From positions 1 to 64,000 of the forward strand of contig JAIXKT010000057.1 in the NCBI GenBank assembly GCA_026932145.1: 64,000 bases of DNA, given 5' to 3'. The stretch's first letter is position 1. The number at the start of each line of letters is the position of its first letter. Under the pieces are notes generated by a model that saw nothing but the letters and a program-made list of their open reading frames with translations, made no database searches and was not told the DNA's origin. The stretch comes from Bacteroidia bacterium (GTDB lineage: Bacteria > Bacteroidota > Bacteroidia > J057 > JAIXKT01). The position numbers and the translations under genes are program-made. Below are positions 866-36,440 of the stretch, one piece after another.

Positions 866-1599
866 TTAATAGAAAATTATCCGTTGTAACCGGAGCTGCC
901 AAAGGTATTGGCAAAGCTATTGTAGAAGGATTAGTAGCCGAAGGGTACTTTACCATTCTGGTAGATGTAGATACCGAAAACGGGAGCTCATTGGCTGCCC
1001 AGTTAGGCGAAAATGCCCGATTCTTATACTGTAATATTTGTGATAAAGAATCTGTATCAGCTCTTTTTCAAACTATTACCAATGAATACCAACGCTTAGA
1101 TGTTCTGGTAAATAATGCAGGAATCATTAAAGATAACGTTATTTGGAAAATGCCTGTTGAGGATTTTGACCAAGTAATTGACGTTAATTTGCGTGGAACT
1201 TGGCTGATGTGCAAATATGCTTCGGAAATTATGAAAAGCCGGCAAAGTGGACGGATTGTGAATATCACCTCCCGTGCTTGGTTAGGTAATCCGGGACAAT
1301 CTAATTATTCTGCTTCAAAAGCCGGCGTTGTAGGTCTAACTCGTGTACTTGCCTTAGAGTTAGGAAGATACGGTGTTTTAGTAAATGCAATAGCTCCCGG
1401 CTTAATAGATACCCCGCTCAGCCAAAAACTTCCTCCAGATGTGCTGCAAAAACTAATTCAAGCCCAACCTACCCGAACTATGGGTAAACCCGAAGACATT
1501 GCACAAGCAGTCATTTTTTTAAGTGATGAAAAAACACAATTCATTACGGGACAAACAATTTACTTAGATGGCGGCAAAAGTATCGGTGCCGGTATCTAA
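862..1599 (+). CDS. SDR-family oxidoreductase (FabG-like)
   Basis: This is a classical short-chain dehydrogenase/reductase of 245 residues. It has the cofactor motif TGAAKGIG (10-17), NNAG (84-87), and the catalytic Ser137, Tyr149 and Lys153 within SNYSASKAG. It resembles 3-oxoacyl-ACP reductases in sequence. Its overlap with xdhC and its position just ahead of a benzoyl-CoA-reductase-like molybdoenzyme suggest a role in the same pathway, perhaps on a cyclic or acyl-CoA intermediate, rather than housekeeping fatty-acid synthesis. The substrate is not predictable from sequence. Confidence 0.85.
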   Translation: MINRKLSVVTGAAKGIGKAIVEGLVAEGYFTILVDVDTENGSSLAAQLGENARFLYCNICDKESVSALFQTITNEYQRLDVLVNNAGIIKDNVIWKMPVEDFDQVIDVNLRGTWLMCKYASEIMKSRQSGRIVNITSRAWLGNPGQSNYSASKAGVVGLTRVLALELGRYGVLVNAIAPGLIDTPLSQKLPPDVLQKLIQAQPTRTMGKPEDIAQAVIFLSDEKTQFITGQTIYLDGGKSIGAGI

Positions 1600-1625
1600 T
1601 GACCTAAATTCTCCTTTTTCTTTTG

Positions 1626-1633
1626 TAACTTTG
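1626..1633 (+). promoter_or_regulatory. -7 promoter element before the fused molybdoenzyme gene
   Basis: TAACTTTG matches TAnnTTTG exactly. It lies 7 nt before an ATG at 1641 and 55 nt before the ATG at 1689 that homology favours. It would let the two enzyme subunits be transcribed separately from the xdhC-SDR pair. Confidence 0.45.
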
Positions 1634-1688
1634 TAACTCGATGTTCAGCCAAAAACTGCTGAATACCTGCAAAAATATCCGCTTGATA

Positions 1689-4475
1689 ATGCATTTAATA
1701 GAATTAACAATAAACGACAAGAAATACCATTTAGCCGTTGAGCCACATGAAACTTTGGCTGATGTTATTCGGGAAAAAGCACACCTTACCGGAACCAAAT
1801 TAGGTTGTGAGCAAGCAAGTTGCGGTGCTTGTACTGTTTGGATAGATGGAAAAGCAACTCAAAGTTGTATAACTCCTGCATTACGTGCCGCAGGCAGCAG
1901 CATCACTACCATTGAAGGTATTGCCCAAAACGGAAAGTTACATCGGCTACAAGAACTATTTGTCCAAAAAGGAGCTACCCAATGCGGATATTGCACTCCG
2001 GGAATGATCATGACTACCTTAGACTTCCTGAAAGAAAATTCAAACCCCACACAAGATGAGATTCGAGAAGCCTTATCAGGAAACCTCTGCCGCTGTACCG
2101 GTTATGTGAAAATTATCGAAGCAGTGGATACTTATGTACAAGAAACAAACAATAACAGCCCTACAGTAGCCGAACAATCTGACCGATATAAAATGGTTGG
2201 CGAGCCGCGCCCTTACTTAGAAGCAGCCAAAAAAGTAACCGGAAGTGCTGACTATGCCGATGATATTCAAGTAAAAAATGTTTTACATTGTAGGTTTTTA
2301 CGCAGCCCTCATGCACATGCGAAGATTAACAATATTGACATTTCTCGCGCCGTAGCTATTCCCGGGGTGCGTGGAGTCATTACCGGAAAAGATTTACCCA
2401 TTAAATTTGGTGTACTACCTATTTCGCAAGATGAAACTGCAATAGCGATCGAAAAGACACGCTACATCGGTGAAATCGTTGCCGCCGTTGCAGCAGATTC
2501 TCCGGCTATAGCAAACTATGCCTGCTCTCTGATTCAGGTAGATTACACCCCGCTCCGCCCTTTCTTTGATATGGAGGAATCCTGCAAAGACATAGGCACT
2601 GCCGAAAAAATCCATGAACACGTCAAACATAATAACAACATCCACAAAAAAGCTGAACTTCGTTTTGGAAACCAAGCAGAAGGCTTTGAAAAATCTGATT
2701 ATACCGTAAAAGTTGATTTTGATTTTCAGGGTATTAACCATGGGTTCACGGAGCCTCACGCTGCTACTGCATGGTGGGATGAAAACGGCCTGACTATCAT
2801 CACAGCAACGCAAGTTCCGCATTATCTGCATCGCTACTTATCTAAGGTGCTTGAAGTACCGATGAGCCGTGTGCGGGTCATCAAACCTTATGTTGGCGGT
2901 GGATTTGGCGGAAAATCCGACCCATTCCCACATGAAATCATCATTGCACACCTTTCCAGAATATTAGGTCAGCCGGTAAAAGTAAAGTTCAATAGAGAAG
3001 AAGTCTTTCTAACTAACCACGGCAGGCATCCAACCAAAATGTCTGTACAAATGGGCATTAACAAAGACGGGACGTTTCAAGCATTAGACGCAGATGTTAT
3101 TATTGACGGTGGCGCTTACGGGAGTTTTGGCGTTGTTACTACGTATTACAACGGGGTTTTGCTGCAAGCACCGTATAAATTAGATAATTTTGGGTTTAGA
3201 ACTCGCCGGGTTTATACCAATAAGCCGCAATGTGGCGCTATGCGAGGGCATGGAGCCGTTAATTCCCGATTCGCCGTAGAAACAATCATTGATAGGTTGG
3301 CAGAAAAAATAAATATAGACCCCTGCGAACTTCGTCTAAAGAATTTTCTAACTGAAAATACCCTTACCGTTGGGCAATACAGGATTACTTCCAACGGAAG
3401 TGCCCAATCCCTAAAAGCCGTAATGGAGCAATCAGGCTGGAAAAATAAGTTCCAAAAATTGCCTTATGGGCGCGGAATAGGTGTAGGCTGTGGCTTCTTC
3501 ATCAGCGGAAGTGCTTTACCAATCCATTGGAATGAATATCCACAATCTGTCGTTCACCTAAAAGTAGATTTAGATGGACGTGTACTCATTACCTCCGGAG
3601 CCAGCGACATAGGGCAAGGTAGTGATACTATGCTGGCTATTATTGTAGCTGAGGTTTTGGGTTTAAGTATAGAAAATATATTTGTTGTGGCTGCCGACAC
3701 TACTTTAACGCCCATAGACTTAGGTAGTTATTCCAGTAGAGTAACTTTTATGGCTGGAAATGCCGCAAAAATGGCTGCCGAAAATCTCCGTACTCAAATT
3801 TTAACTGCCGTAGCTTCCAATCAAAATGTTGATATTTTAGAATTAAACTTAGAATGCGAAAAAGTTTTTTCAAACGATAAATCCATTGATTTAACTTGGG
3901 TGCAAGCTATTGAAATAGCTACCCGAAAAGTTGGTGCTTTAAATACCAGCGGATATTACAATTCTCCTAAGTTGGGAGGTGATTTTAAAGGGTCAGGTGC
4001 CGGCTTAAGTCCTTCTTATAGTTTTGGTGCCGTCATTGCAGAAGTATCAGTAGATCCAGAAACGGGGCAAGTTCGGGTTCTAAATATCTGGGGAGCACAT
4101 GATGCCGGCAAAGCCCTGAACCCACTTGCAGTAGAAGGACAATTAGAAGGCTCTTGGCACATGGGGCTTGGCCAAGCCCTCTCAGAACAAATGAAATACC
4201 ACGAAGGGCTACTGCTTAACAGTAACTTTGTGAACTATAAAATACCAACCACCAAAGACACACCTCCTATTCACACAAACATCATTGAGTCAATGGATCC
4301 CGAAGGCCCGTTTGGTGCCAAAGAATGTGGTGAAGGGGCTTTACATCCGGTAATTCCGGCTGTTGCAAATGCTATTTATGATGCCGTAGGCGTGCGCGTA
4401 ACCTCTCTGCCTATTAACGCCGAAGAAGTATTAAAAGCCATCAAACTTTCTCAAAAACAATCTGTTAAACCCTAA
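1689..4475 (+). CDS. Fused [2Fe-2S] and molybdopterin subunit, HcrC-HcrA-like
   Basis: This is a xanthine-oxidase-family hydroxylase or reductase with two subunits in one chain. Residues 1-160 are the iron-sulfur domain: cysteines 40, 45, 48 and 60 bind the plant-type cluster, and 99, 102, 134 and 136 the second cluster. From about residue 170 it is a molybdopterin-binding subunit with GGGFGGK, CGAMRGHGAVNSRFAVE, and near the C terminus GAKECGEGAL, which holds the expected catalytic Glu. The total of 928 residues is close to HcrC (about 161) plus HcrA (about 769) of 4-hydroxybenzoyl-CoA reductase, as I recall those lengths. An ATG 48 nt upstream (1641) is also open, but homology begins at 1689. 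The FAD subunit follows after 13 nt. Xanthine or aldehyde oxidation remain alternatives. Confidence 0.87.
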   Translation: MHLIELTINDKKYHLAVEPHETLADVIREKAHLTGTKLGCEQASCGACTVWIDGKATQSCITPALRAAGSSITTIEGIAQNGKLHRLQELFVQKGATQCGYCTPGMIMTTLDFLKENSNPTQDEIREALSGNLCRCTGYVKIIEAVDTYVQETNNNSPTVAEQSDRYKMVGEPRPYLEAAKKVTGSADYADDIQVKNVLHCRFLRSPHAHAKINNIDISRAVAIPGVRGVITGKDLPIKFGVLPISQDETAIAIEKTRYIGEIVAAVAADSPAIANYACSLIQVDYTPLRPFFDMEESCKDIGTAEKIHEHVKHNNNIHKKAELRFGNQAEGFEKSDYTVKVDFDFQGINHGFTEPHAATAWWDENGLTIITATQVPHYLHRYLSKVLEVPMSRVRVIKPYVGGGFGGKSDPFPHEIIIAHLSRILGQPVKVKFNREEVFLTNHGRHPTKMSVQMGINKDGTFQALDADVIIDGGAYGSFGVVTTYYNGVLLQAPYKLDNFGFRTRRVYTNKPQCGAMRGHGAVNSRFAVETIIDRLAEKINIDPCELRLKNFLTENTLTVGQYRITSNGSAQSLKAVMEQSGWKNKFQKLPYGRGIGVGCGFFISGSALPIHWNEYPQSVVHLKVDLDGRVLITSGASDIGQGSDTMLAIIVAEVLGLSIENIFVVAADTTLTPIDLGSYSSRVTFMAGNAAKMAAENLRTQILTAVASNQNVDILELNLECEKVFSNDKSIDLTWVQAIEIATRKVGALNTSGYYNSPKLGGDFKGSGAGLSPSYSFGAVIAEVSVDPETGQVRVLNIWGAHDAGKALNPLAVEGQLEGSWHMGLGQALSEQMKYHEGLLLNSNFVNYKIPTTKDTPPIHTNIIESMDPEGPFGAKECGEGALHPVIPAVANAIYDAVGVRVTSLPINAEEVLKAIKLSQKQSVKP

Positions 4476-30337: not shown

Positions 30338-30655
30338 TTAAGAAAATATCCAAATTAAAAATAATGCGATGACAGCGACAAAGGCAATAGTAGCTGCAAT
30401 TACGATAGGCGTAGAAATGCTAAATTGATGCATTTGTCGGTTTCCGGCAATTTCTAACCGGTTGCGGATAGCGCGGTTCTCGGCGGCGTGGATGCCAATG
30501 ATAATATCTCTGCGCAAAGAAATCTCGGTCTGCATCTGCGGATTTTGAGCCAGAAACTCTTCAAAATTAACCCTGTCTTCTTCAGAAAGTTCCTTTTTTA
30601 GATATTTATCCATCAATATTTCTATTTCTTTATCAGAAAGTTCTATATTTTCCAT
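30338..30655 (-). CDS. Putative anti-sigma factor, single-pass membrane protein
   Basis: A 105-residue protein with an acidic helical cytoplasmic part (KEIEILMDKYLKKELSEEDR, FEEFLAQNPQ), a linker, and one membrane helix at about 81-103 (TPIVIAATIAFVAVIALFLI). The pattern ExLxxxYLxxxLSxxDxxxFExxLxxxP is common in short Bacteroidota anti-sigma-like proteins. It lies 2 nt downstream of the sigma-factor gene, the classical arrangement for sigma/anti-sigma pairs. There is no zinc-binding motif and no large periplasmic domain. Confidence 0.6.
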   Translation of the reverse strand: MENIELSDKEIEILMDKYLKKELSEEDRVNFEEFLAQNPQMQTEISLRRDIIIGIHAAENRAIRNRLEIAGNRQMHQFSISTPIVIAATIAFVAVIALFLIWIFS

Positions 30656-30657
30656 AC

Positions 30658-31521
30658 TTAATTATCCATTGTTGATCTTGTATTAGGTAGTCTTTGTTGT
30701 ATAGCTTTTTTTAGTTTAGAAAGGCATTTATTTTTTTGTGTCTTAGAGGTTTCGGAATTTGCATATCCAAGCCGTTGTGCAATTTCCTCGTGTGAAAGCT
30801 GATGTTTGTAAAACAAACTCAGTACTTTTTTGCAAGCATCAGAAGCCTGCTCAAAAAGTTCTTGAACCAACTGTTGTCGTTCATTCAAAAGTTCTTCTTG
30901 AAATTCAATATCTACAAATTCATTTGCTTCTTCGGGTAAGTCATATAAATATTCAAATGGGTTATTTTTTCGTTTTCGGATTCTTTCTAACCAAAGATTT
31001 TTGCAAATTGCATAAAAATATGTTTTAACACTCACATCATGCCGTGGTTTATACTTACCATCACGGGTATTATTTAACAAGACCAAAATAGCGTCCTGAA
31101 TCAAATCTTCTGCGTCTTGGGTATTTCCACTGTTGATTCTGACAAAGTTCTTGATACTGTGGGCATATTGCATATTGATATAATAATATCCCCAACCATC
31201 ATTGCTTAGTAAGCTATTAATAATCTTGTGGTCAAGCGTTAGTTCTTCTTGTTCTTTTTCAAAACGAACACAGCATAGATTAAAAATATGTTCTTCTAAG
31301 CTGCTACCCAATGTTGGTTTAAATTTACCTTTAACGATTAAATTTCTTACTTGCAGCAAGGCATCTTTGAGTAGTCTTTTAACAGTCTCTTCTTTTTTTA
31401 GTTCAACTAATAGTGCGGGAATAATTTTAAGGTATAGCATTTCAATGAGGCTATCATCTCCGTCTTTTATTCGGGATATAATGGTAGGATCATCTAAGTT
31501 TTTAGGGTATTCAGTGGACAT
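30658..31521 (-). CDS. ECF-type sigma factor with duplicated region 2
   Basis: An RNA polymerase sigma factor of 287 residues, about 100 more than usual. The functional region 2 is at about 107-185 (NTQDAEDLIQDAILVLLNN, DVSVKTYFYAICKNLWLERI) and region 4 at 217-275 (SHEEIAQRLGYANSETSKTQ). Residues 13-92 look like a second, degenerate region 2: positions 50-91 align without gaps to 140-181, offset by exactly 90, with about 11 identities of 42 and many conservative changes (LLKDALL / LIQDAIL, KGKFKPT / DGKYKPR). The gene overlaps purD by 11 nt and is followed after 2 nt by the putative anti-sigma gene. Confidence 0.85.
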   Translation of the reverse strand: MSTEYPKNLDDPTIISRIKDGDDSLIEMLYLKIIPALLVELKKEETVKRLLKDALLQVRNLIVKGKFKPTLGSSLEEHIFNLCCVRFEKEQEELTLDHKIINSLLSNDGWGYYYINMQYAHSIKNFVRINSGNTQDAEDLIQDAILVLLNNTRDGKYKPRHDVSVKTYFYAICKNLWLERIRKRKNNPFEYLYDLPEEANEFVDIEFQEELLNERQQLVQELFEQASDACKKVLSLFYKHQLSHEEIAQRLGYANSETSKTQKNKCLSKLKKAIQQRLPNTRSTMDN

Positions 31522-33941: not shown

Positions 33942-36440
33942 TTAGATTTTCTTTCGGAAAAAATATTTGATTTTTCTGCGAATTTTTTGAAACCAAGGCT
34001 CATCCTCTTCATAATATCCATATCCATACCCATAGCCGTAGTAGCCGTATCCATACCCATGGTCTTTGCTTACGTCATTGAGCAAAATGCACAGATTACT
34101 AATTTTTTTACTCTGGTGCAGTTCATCTACATAGTCTATAAAATCTACCTTAGTGATATTTTGTCTGGTAACAAAAATATTTATATCTGAAAGTTTTGAT
34201 AATATAAGGGCATCAGTTACCAATCCTATTGGGGGAGTATCTAAGACAACAAAGGAGAAATTTGCTTTTAAATACTCTATAAGTTCAGGCATCTTGTTGT
34301 CTAACAGTAATTCAGATGGATTGTTAGTATCTGAGCCAGAGGGGATTACGTACAGATAATCTGCTTGTGTTTGGTAGATTACATCCTGAATTTCTTTATT
34401 TCCTTTCAAATAGTCTGTTATTCCGGGTAAGCCTCTGACTCCGGTATATTGTCCAAGTCGCTCTTTTGAGTCAGGTGAAGTTACGGGCATTGCATTTAAG
34501 TATTCATGGATTTTGGGTTTTCGTAGGTCTAAGCCTAAGATAATGGTCTTTTTTCCTGCCATAGAAAGTGCAACGGCTAAGTTTGTAGCAGTAAAGGTTT
34601 TGCCTTCGTTTGCAATTGAAGAGGTAAGTAAAATAACTGAACCTTGTTGATCTTGTCCTGTTCTTTTGTAATAGTTTATATTTGAGCGCAAGATTCGGAA
34701 GGCTTCTGATACGCCGCTACGTGGTTTTTCAAAAGTGATTAGCTTATGACGTTTGTTGCTATCATAGTTATGCGGAATACTCCCCAAGAAAGGAACATCT
34801 GTTTTTTGGGAAATCTCAACTTTATCCAGAATCGTATTTTGGGAAAAGTGTTTTGCTAAAATAACGCCTAATGGGATAAAAAGCCCAAGAAAAATAGCTG
34901 CTGCATAAACCAAAACGGGTTTTGGAAAAACGGGATCGTCAGGGTCCAGCATAGCCGGCTCAACAATCTGAACATCAGGCGTATTAGAAGAACGACTGAT
35001 TGCTGCCTCCGTCCGTTTTTCCATCAAAAACACATACAAATTCTCACTCAGTTTATAATTCCGCTGGATATTTACTAACTCCCGCTCTGACTTGGGGAGT
35101 TGCTTAACAGACTGCTCCACTTGCTTTATCCGATTATTCAAATCATTCATAGCTAAGCTATTAGCAGTAAGTAAGTTATTTACATTTTCTAAAATTTTAT
35201 TGCGTAATGTCTTTATTCTATCTTCCAAAAGTTTTACTTGCGGGCTTTGTATCATTCCTTGATCTAAGTAAACTTTCTTTTCTAATTGAAGGCTGATTAA
35301 ATCCATCACTAACTTATTCAGAATAGGATCTTGATTTTCTCCCAATGAAAATGGGAATATACCGTTGTTGAAATCTTCGTTATTAATGTTATTTTTAAGG
35401 TATTCGTAATATTTCTGGGCGATTATATATTTTGCACGCTCTTCTTCTAACTTGCTGAGTTCTTCCAAGAGCATTTTGGCTTCTATACTAAGGTCGGCAA
35501 TTTGATAGGATGATTTAAACTGCTCTAATTGGGCTTCTACGCTGCCTAAAGTATCACTAGTTTGTTTGAGCTCTTTATCAATAAACTCAATTGTCTTAAT
35601 TGACACTTCATTTTTTAGGTCTAAATTTTGAGAGGCATAATTTCGGACTAATGTCTGCAAAAAATAGACGGCCTTTCTCGGTACATTTTGTTGTATTGAA
35701 ACATCTATGATGGTAGAGCCAACAGGTTCTGGATTTACTACTAACCGGCGTTTATAGTCTGCAGCTAACCGCTTCAAATTATGTATTCTGAATGAATAAT
35801 TTGTAATAACTATGTCTTTAACGATTTTTTCGGGCTTTACCAATCGTAGTGCAAATTCAAAATTACCGACCTTAACAATTTGATTAAACTGTACTTTTTG
35901 GTTTATCGAAAACGGCCCATAAAATATCGTTCCTTCACTTTCAGCAGTAAGTTGGTAGGTTTTGCTATCAATCAAAGTTACTTTAAAATCAACCCCATAA
36001 GGTAATGAGGAATCACAAGCAAATACCTTTGCTGTATCTACAACAATGGCAAAGGGGTTGTCTTCATATAATTCAATGTTATTGAATAATCCCTTAGAGT
36101 AGAATGATACCCAGAATCCTAACTGCCTTAATGATAGGAATATCAGTGGCTGTGAAGTTATGATTGTAGATTCGTTGAATACTTTTTCCTTTGTTTGAAA
36201 AGTGATTTCGCCGAATAAAATTTCGGAAGGGTCTTGGAAGCCGCCACTATCTTTGATTAATAGGGTTGTTTTTGCTTGAAAAACGGGAATGCTGTACCGT
36301 AAGAAAAGCCACGCTAAGAAAATAAAAAATATTAGGGAAAAGAGTATCCAGTATTTATTGGTTTTTATACGGCGATAAAACTTTTTAAATGCCTGAGTAT
36401 CTCGGCTTTCTTGATTGGGTTGCGAAATAAAATCTGCCAT
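33942..36440 (-). CDS. Wzc-type polysaccharide co-polymerase and tyrosine kinase
   Basis: An inner-membrane chain-length regulator with a cytoplasmic BY-kinase domain, 832 residues. Helices near 31-50 and 515-535 flank a large periplasmic coiled-coil domain with the Wzz fold. The kinase has Walker A in SSIANEGKTFTATNL, the A' motif GLDLRKPKIH and Walker B FVVLDTPPIG. The C terminus carries a tyrosine cluster, GYGYGYYGYGYGYGYY, at about 795-810, then acidic EEDEP and a basic end; this is the expected autophosphorylation tail. The gene lies 17 nt after the export protein gene. No cognate phosphatase is seen. Confidence 0.93.
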   Translation of the reverse strand: MADFISQPNQESRDTQAFKKFYRRIKTNKYWILFSLIFFIFLAWLFLRYSIPVFQAKTTLLIKDSGGFQDPSEILFGEITFQTKEKVFNESTIITSQPLIFLSLRQLGFWVSFYSKGLFNNIELYEDNPFAIVVDTAKVFACDSSLPYGVDFKVTLIDSKTYQLTAESEGTIFYGPFSINQKVQFNQIVKVGNFEFALRLVKPEKIVKDIVITNYSFRIHNLKRLAADYKRRLVVNPEPVGSTIIDVSIQQNVPRKAVYFLQTLVRNYASQNLDLKNEVSIKTIEFIDKELKQTSDTLGSVEAQLEQFKSSYQIADLSIEAKMLLEELSKLEEERAKYIIAQKYYEYLKNNINNEDFNNGIFPFSLGENQDPILNKLVMDLISLQLEKKVYLDQGMIQSPQVKLLEDRIKTLRNKILENVNNLLTANSLAMNDLNNRIKQVEQSVKQLPKSERELVNIQRNYKLSENLYVFLMEKRTEAAISRSSNTPDVQIVEPAMLDPDDPVFPKPVLVYAAAIFLGLFIPLGVILAKHFSQNTILDKVEISQKTDVPFLGSIPHNYDSNKRHKLITFEKPRSGVSEAFRILRSNINYYKRTGQDQQGSVILLTSSIANEGKTFTATNLAVALSMAGKKTIILGLDLRKPKIHEYLNAMPVTSPDSKERLGQYTGVRGLPGITDYLKGNKEIQDVIYQTQADYLYVIPSGSDTNNPSELLLDNKMPELIEYLKANFSFVVLDTPPIGLVTDALILSKLSDINIFVTRQNITKVDFIDYVDELHQSKKISNLCILLNDVSKDHGYGYGYYGYGYGYGYYEEDEPWFQKIRRKIKYFFRKKI

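Follow-up and report, generated by a model that had tools for sequence, protein, structure and literature searches.

The window analysed here is the whole 64,000-nucleotide stretch of contig JAIXKT010000057.1 (assembly GCA_026932145.1) from a Bacteroidia bacterium. Its reverse strand carries a gene for a sigma factor of the ECF family with two sigma region 2 domains in tandem, and directly downstream of it a small gene for an anti-sigma-like membrane protein, which we call the partner. The features are as follows, with the basis for each in parentheses:

30658..31521, minus strand: tandem-sigma2 ECF sigma factor gene, 287 residues in the order sigma2'-sigma2-sigma4 (open reading frame, TIGR02937, homologues)
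31231..31494, minus strand: copy 1 (sigma2'), a degenerate sigma region 2, residues about 10-97 (profile, AlphaFold2, Foldseek)
31231..31299, minus strand: fourth helix of copy 1, corresponding to the helix that recognizes the -10 element, residues 75-97 (net charge comparison)
30952..31230, minus strand: copy 2 (sigma2), presumed working region 2, residues about 98-190 (Pfam, helix 4 charge)
30889..30951, minus strand: low-confidence and variable linker, residues 191-211 (pLDDT, between-family identity)
30691..30888, minus strand: sigma4 domain, residues about 212-277 (Pfam Sigma70_r4)
30338..30655, minus strand: partner gene, 105 residues, anti-sigma-like with a C-terminal transmembrane helix (adjacency in five of five genomes, profile A2)

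The ATG of the sigma open reading frame is preceded, four codons upstream, by a stop codon, and the N-terminal domain is therefore in the same frame as the rest of the protein. There is an overlap of 11 bases with the end of a purD-like open reading frame, and the partner gene begins 2 bases past the stop of the sigma gene. Residues 118-273 match the TIGR02937 sigma70-ECF model with 71.5 bits against a cut-off of 42.9, and Pfam assigns Sigma70_r2 to residues 118-185 in copy 2 (E 4.1e-9) and Sigma70_r4 to residues 231-272 (E 4.4e-6), both over the Pfam cut-off. Copy 2 also carries the motifs D..QD and KTYFYAICKNLW, and together with sigma4 it is presumed to work as an ECF sigma factor. The linker between them has a pLDDT below 50 at residues 187-212 in an AlphaFold2 model of the whole chain, and its identity between families is 14-24%. 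As in other ECFs (group IV), there is a sigma2 and a sigma4 and no sigma3. However, ECFs are normally of a minimal two-domain kind, with a single sigma2 and about 180-220 residues, while this protein is roughly 100 residues longer, as had been noted from its sequence alone. Since it has two sigma2 domains and 287 residues it is a variant of the ECF family; it belongs within that family and is not a new kind of system. By the Pfam model the genome has six sigma2-containing genes, among which the window gene alone is matched twice in one frame by the N-terminal profile described below.

Full-length homologues with 35-42% identity over 270-280 residues were found in four additional genomes belonging to the order of the window organism in a search for two-copy relatives, a check that the sequence-only reading had proposed. 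As the full-length protein recurs in these four genomes, three of which are also separate public records, an assembly artefact is ruled out. The sigma2-sigma2-sigma4 arrangement is thus conserved in five of the 22 genomes examined for the order, in three families (f1, f3 and f7), and is found in none of the genomes of f4, the largest family of the order. A search of 395 sampled genomes of the class gave no tandem members beyond the same five, and a scan of 84,980 species genomes, seeded by a pattern, gave three full-length members, all among the known five. Among the viral contigs searched there were only two distant sigma matches, which extend over copy 2 and a portion of sigma4. We also considered a set of sigma matches in long frames (L097-L104) as independent tandem cases, and rejected them because none has a second significant sigma2; their extra length is frame 5' of a normal-looking sigma gene, except in fusions of sigma2 with a transmembrane helix and TPR repeats.

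The window sequence by itself does not reveal what copy 1 is, as residues 1-98 alone have zero matches in Pfam or NCBIfam scans of this single sequence; homologues are therefore needed for its identification. Using them, we find that copy 1 is a homologous sigma region 2 domain. The ungapped alignment of residues 50-91 with 140-181 at an offset of 90, on which the sequence-only reading was built, was reproduced with 11 of 42 positions identical and a BLOSUM62 score of 44. The best ungapped match of residues 1-97 with 98-190 scores 56, also at offset 90, a value reached by 0 of 2000 shuffles (maximum 43, z about 8), and BLASTP of one half against the other gives an E-value of 9e-6 as a single comparison. 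When profiles of the two copies from the five homologues are compared by hhalign, they align over 82 columns (13-94 with 2-87) with a probability of 97% and a score of 58.6, against a maximum of 22.4 for 150 column-shuffled profiles. The copy 1 profile, built from the five N-terminal domains, aligns with ordinary ECF sigma2 at a probability of 98.9% and a score of 89.1 (shuffled maximum 18.6). It thus aligns better with single-copy ECF sigma2 than with copy 2 (89.1 versus 58.6), where the ordinary ECFs used as a yardstick are biased to near relatives because some were collected through the same profiles. Additionally, an ordinary sigma2 HMM scores each N-terminal domain alone at 25.5-38.0 bits, against a maximum of 16.7 bits in a control of 10,000 shuffled sequences (9,305 reported). 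In 395 Bacteroidota genomes the N-terminal profile matches ordinary ECF sigma2 in 103 genomes (best E 2.5e-11), with two matches in one frame only in the window gene.

Structure prediction agrees with the profiles. The AlphaFold2 model of the whole chain (mean pLDDT 77.6, pTM 0.53) has two consecutive four-helix units and a separate sigma4, with helices at residues 11-19, 24-41, 44-63, 75-106 running into 110-129, 134-153 and 165-186; at this pTM the packing of the domains is not defined. Modeled alone, residues 1-97 reach a pLDDT of 83.4, and the helices of copy 1 span 11-19, 24-41, 44-63 and 75-96. In a Foldseek search of the PDB with copy 1 alone the top-ranking structures are sigma factors, with region 2 as the aligned part; E. 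coli sigmaE comes first, and the first six have probabilities of 0.98-1.00 and TM-scores of 0.53-0.64. Since the domain is small and helical, weak Foldseek E-values are to be expected (the best is 0.087), and we take the fold match as support, short of proof, with the sequence profiles carrying the weight. Thus the N-terminal residues, tested alone for a different fold or for a lack of similarity to region 2, came out as region 2 by profile and by fold, and the proposal of a tandem, degenerate copy of this region stands. The other possibility is that the similarity is due to chance or to mimicry by helical composition, with no sigma domain present. It could draw on the empty scans of the N-terminal 98 residues and on the Pfam scan of the N-termini of the other four homologues, which gives zero sigma families. 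However, the profile and HMM scores of these same domains lie far above their shuffled maxima, and in the fold search the top structures align through region 2 of sigma factors. We regard this possibility as extremely improbable, and the sequence shuffles and profile controls rule it out.

In a phylogenetic tree the copy 1 domains form one clade and the copy 2 domains form another. As each copy is a single clade, the tandem arrangement was most likely in place before the three families separated, and the five cases probably descend from one event. The tree does not place copy 1 beside copy 2, and a grouping of both is not rejected (AU p 0.30). This value is compatible with an origin of copy 1 by internal duplication as well as by fusion with another ECF.

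Comparison with 75 ordinary ECFs, used for both conserved positions and charge, indicates what copy 1 has lost. Of 31 conserved sigma2 positions, 6-12 are preserved in copy 1 compared with 14-22 in copy 2. For example, at the positions corresponding to sigmaE T72 (Thr in 71 of the 75 ordinary ECFs), K71, K79 and N80, copy 1 mostly carries other residues and copy 2 has retained the conserved ones. In the window, helix 4 of copy 1 has its charge reversed, and its conserved Asn and basic residues are gone. The view that the first copy lacks the pattern of a working -10-binding region was thereby borne out, and it extends to all five homologues. The residues that are invariant in copy 1 are mostly those of the scaffold (I18, G21, Y30, L51, A54 and L96), together with E88. 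Copy 1 keeps the four-helix scaffold and has lost most -10-recognition and most core-binding residues. Two further departures from ordinary ECFs are seen in copy 2. Helix 2 of ordinary ECFs has a near-invariant Tyr (74 of 75), which copy 1 keeps and which is Asn or Gln in copy 2. In addition, copy 2 (window 30952-31230) of all five homologues has acquired a GW(A/G)(F/Y)YY motif whose Trp is invariant.

The core-binding residues bear on the possibility that copy 1 is an extra contact with RNA polymerase that strengthens or redirects core binding. We take D403, Q406, E407 and M413 of sigma70 to be core-contact residues and to align with the ECF positions compared here. The core-contact triad is D-Q-D/E in nearly all of the 75 single-sigma2 ECFs, and copy 2 in the window keeps D, Q and D along with a KTYF..ICKN motif. 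In contrast, the equivalents of D48-Q51-E52 in the five copy 1 domains are R-K-D, D-K-K, N-K-K, K-Q-D and D-Q-E, and all five have Arg or Lys where sigma70 has M413. An added polymerase contact would be in keeping with the retained scaffold of regions 2.1 and 2.2, and two members from f7 keep Q and D/E at Q51 and E52 while their copy 2 has M for Q there. With the triad broken in most members, the extra core-binding arm that the sequence-only reading had considered is weakened, and we now judge it improbable. At sigmaE position 51 there is a reciprocal pattern of Gln: in f7 (L004, L005) copy 1 has Gln and copy 2 has Met, and in f1 and f3 copy 1 has Lys and copy 2 has Gln.

Copy 1 evolves faster than copy 2, with identities between families of 18-30% for copy 1 and 45-49% for copy 2. 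Such rapid divergence would fit a relic of fusion or duplication that is tolerated and contributes only passively to structure, for example to stability or spacing. However, copy 1 is kept in five genomes and three families with no disruption of the frame, and it is predicted to fold with confidence. Moreover, copy 1 is under purifying selection in the one genome pair that could be used for a dN/dS analysis by a single method (Nei-Gojobori); between G002 and G008 it has a dN of 0.109, a dS of 0.68 and an omega of about 0.16, and copy 2 has an omega of 0.023. A passive relic is accordingly an unlikely account of these domains.

The charge of helix 4 bears on a further possibility, the built-in inhibitor that the sequence-only reading had also suggested. 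Copy 1 would then be an intramolecular inhibitor folding onto the basic -10-binding or core-binding face of copy 2, a cover that the partner or core RNA polymerase would lift, as with region 1.1 of sigma70. Inhibitory acidic N-terminal domains occur in primary sigmas. Helix 4 in the window has a net charge of -5 in copy 1 and +6 in copy 2, and in the full model helix 4 of copy 1 continues into helix 1 of copy 2 (H75-106), which would hold the two copies close together. While copy 2 has +6 or +7 throughout and the 75 ordinary ECFs range from +1 to +9 (mean +6.2), the acidity of copy 1 is not general: its helix 4 has net charges of 0, 0, -1 and -2 in the other four homologues, whose whole copy 1 domains have +2, 0, +1 and -1. 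The pTM of the full model also leaves the packing of the two copies undefined. We consider autoinhibition rather unlikely, placing it ahead of a passive relic, with an extra polymerase contact last.

The gene beside the sigma gene had been described as small, membrane-bound and anti-sigma-like, and this description holds. In five of five genomes it lies directly downstream of the tandem sigma gene, and all five partner proteins have a transmembrane helix at the C-terminus and share the conserved motif D.YL..E..(T/S).E...FE..L. A profile of the partners (A2) recognizes the N-terminal domain of the proteins whose genes directly follow those of single-sigma2 ECFs, with a best E-value of 1.4e-11. 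Some of these relatives of the partner match NCBIfam anti-sigma models with E-values down to 2.2e-9, below the curated cut-offs, and one is over the Pfam zf-HC2 cut-off. The window partner itself has only weak matches (NF052375, E 0.016; zf-HC2, E 0.13), and a PDB profile search with it gave zero anti-sigma matches. It consists of an anti-sigma-like cytoplasmic domain and a transmembrane helix at residues 84-102, without a periplasmic domain. Its relatives continue past the helix with TPR, trypsin-like or unassigned domains. With the helix located by a simple hydropathy window, 1-4 residues follow it in the five partners versus at least 133 in 43 anti-sigma-like neighbours of single-sigma2 ECFs, and none of the five has the extracytoplasmic domain by which a membrane anti-sigma with a periplasmic sensor is recognized. 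Within the order, partner open frames have 107-123 residues and all other frames matching A2 have 209-456. Judged by these profile matches and lengths, the partner is probably a truncated homologue of the anti-sigma family usual beside such ECFs, a feature that is new relative to the sequence-only reading. Because the five cases probably come from one event, the coincidence of a short partner with a second sigma2 counts as one correlation and not as five.

Some relatives of the partner encoded downstream of ECFs (L078, L089 and L091) carry a CxxC zinc-type motif, which links this Bacteroidota anti-sigma-like family to the zf-HC2 anti-sigmas. As class I anti-sigmas were found beside only 6% of Bacteroidetes ECFs in a published survey (PMC7406223), divergent anti-sigmas of the partner type may have been undercounted there.

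The retention of a degenerate copy beside a shortened, inhibitor-like protein suggests that the copy is kept for regulation. From the architecture observed in the five genomes we infer a mechanism in which copy 1 would be a pseudo-sigma2 that no longer binds DNA and is kept for regulation by protein contact, as a docking, decoy or inhibitory domain working with the tail-anchored partner. Although we favor this explanation over the others weighed above, we hold it only tentatively. In its most likely form copy 1 would be a docking or decoy surface in cis for the neighbouring putative membrane anti-sigma, and the partner would hold the sigma factor at the membrane through copy 1. Alternatively, copy 1 may compete for the anti-sigma helix that otherwise covers copy 2. 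As the partner barely extends beyond the membrane, any signal would be sensed in the cytoplasm or in the membrane itself and not by a periplasmic sensor. In class I anti-sigmas (ASDI), helix 4 binds regions 2.1 and 2.2 of sigma2 and helix 1 binds sigma4 (PMC7406223), so that docking on a spare sigma2 is plausible. In trans, a sigma-like protein acting as a decoy for an anti-sigma is known from PhyR and NepR (PMC4814048, PMC5830050). Docking is consistent with the five full-length homologues, each of which has retained copy 1 and has a truncated partner beside it. However, no conserved binding patch is visible in copy 1 with five sequences, and the surface of region 2.2 on which class I anti-sigmas dock has itself changed there. 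The short anti-sigma may merely accompany the lineage with no mechanistic link to copy 1, and the omega value comes from one genome pair. A more specific version, which we consider possible and still doubtful, is a decoy in cis, with a copy 1 that would have given up both DNA and core binding, in which the tail-anchored, sensor-less putative anti-sigma would switch between copy 1, leaving the sigma factor active, and copy 2, holding it, in response to intracellular sensing.

The tandem-sigma2 protein shares features with several known systems. Copy 2 with sigma4 resembles the sigma factor of ordinary Bacteroidota ECF systems with a membrane anti-sigma (TIGR02937/TIGR02985-type), and the cytoplasmic domain of the partner is homologous to that of the neighbours of single-sigma2 ECFs. 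Unlike those systems, the window has an extra N-terminal sigma2 and a partner that ends after its transmembrane helix. Extra N-terminal sequence is also present in extended ECFs such as the former ECF87-89 of Planctomycetes and ECF36, which has transmembrane helices and DUF2275. In the window, however, the extension is itself a sigma2, a kind not described in the available portions of PMC8103513 and PMC8999054. These portions describe the mechanism of ECF N-terminal extensions as unknown, so that the window protein also bears on how such extensions control ECFs. PhyR, of the alphaproteobacterial general stress response, has a sigma-like domain kept to bind an anti-sigma and not for transcription (PMC4814048, PMC5830050), a role that is putative here, where copy 1 has lost most of its DNA-contact residues. 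In contrast, PhyR forms a protein of its own and has a receiver domain. The sigma-like domain of the window is fused to the sigma factor, and Pfam and NCBIfam scans of the window protein find no receiver domain. SigO/RsoA of Bacillus subtilis likewise has sigma region-level parts rearranged between polypeptides (PMC10141391), but these are split and not duplicated, with no second sigma2. Finally, Dma3 of Bacteroides thetaiotaomicron joins a Bacteroidota sigma domain to a regulator (PMC13088901); there the sigma is fused to a membrane-spanning anti-sigma and a tandem sigma2 is not described (PMC13088901). For the phrases tried, we found no paper in the open-access literature on a tandem or duplicated sigma2 in one sigma factor. 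The window protein provides a compact system to ask how a DNA-reading sigma domain turns to regulating its own protein.

Two additional observations were made. Two proteins from two genomes of another family (L102, about 1019-1987, plus strand, and L103, about 1005-1973, plus strand; wider loci L111 and L112) have a sigma2-like domain followed by a transmembrane helix and TPR repeats. No sigma4 is detectable in either, and L111 has no separate sigma factor gene nearby; each apparently joins a sigma2 domain to a membrane protein of the anti-sigma type. Elsewhere in the window, at 33942-36440 on the minus strand, an exopolysaccharide tyrosine-kinase-like protein has an unusual C-terminal tail of Gly-Tyr repeats (GYGYGYYGYGYGYGYY).
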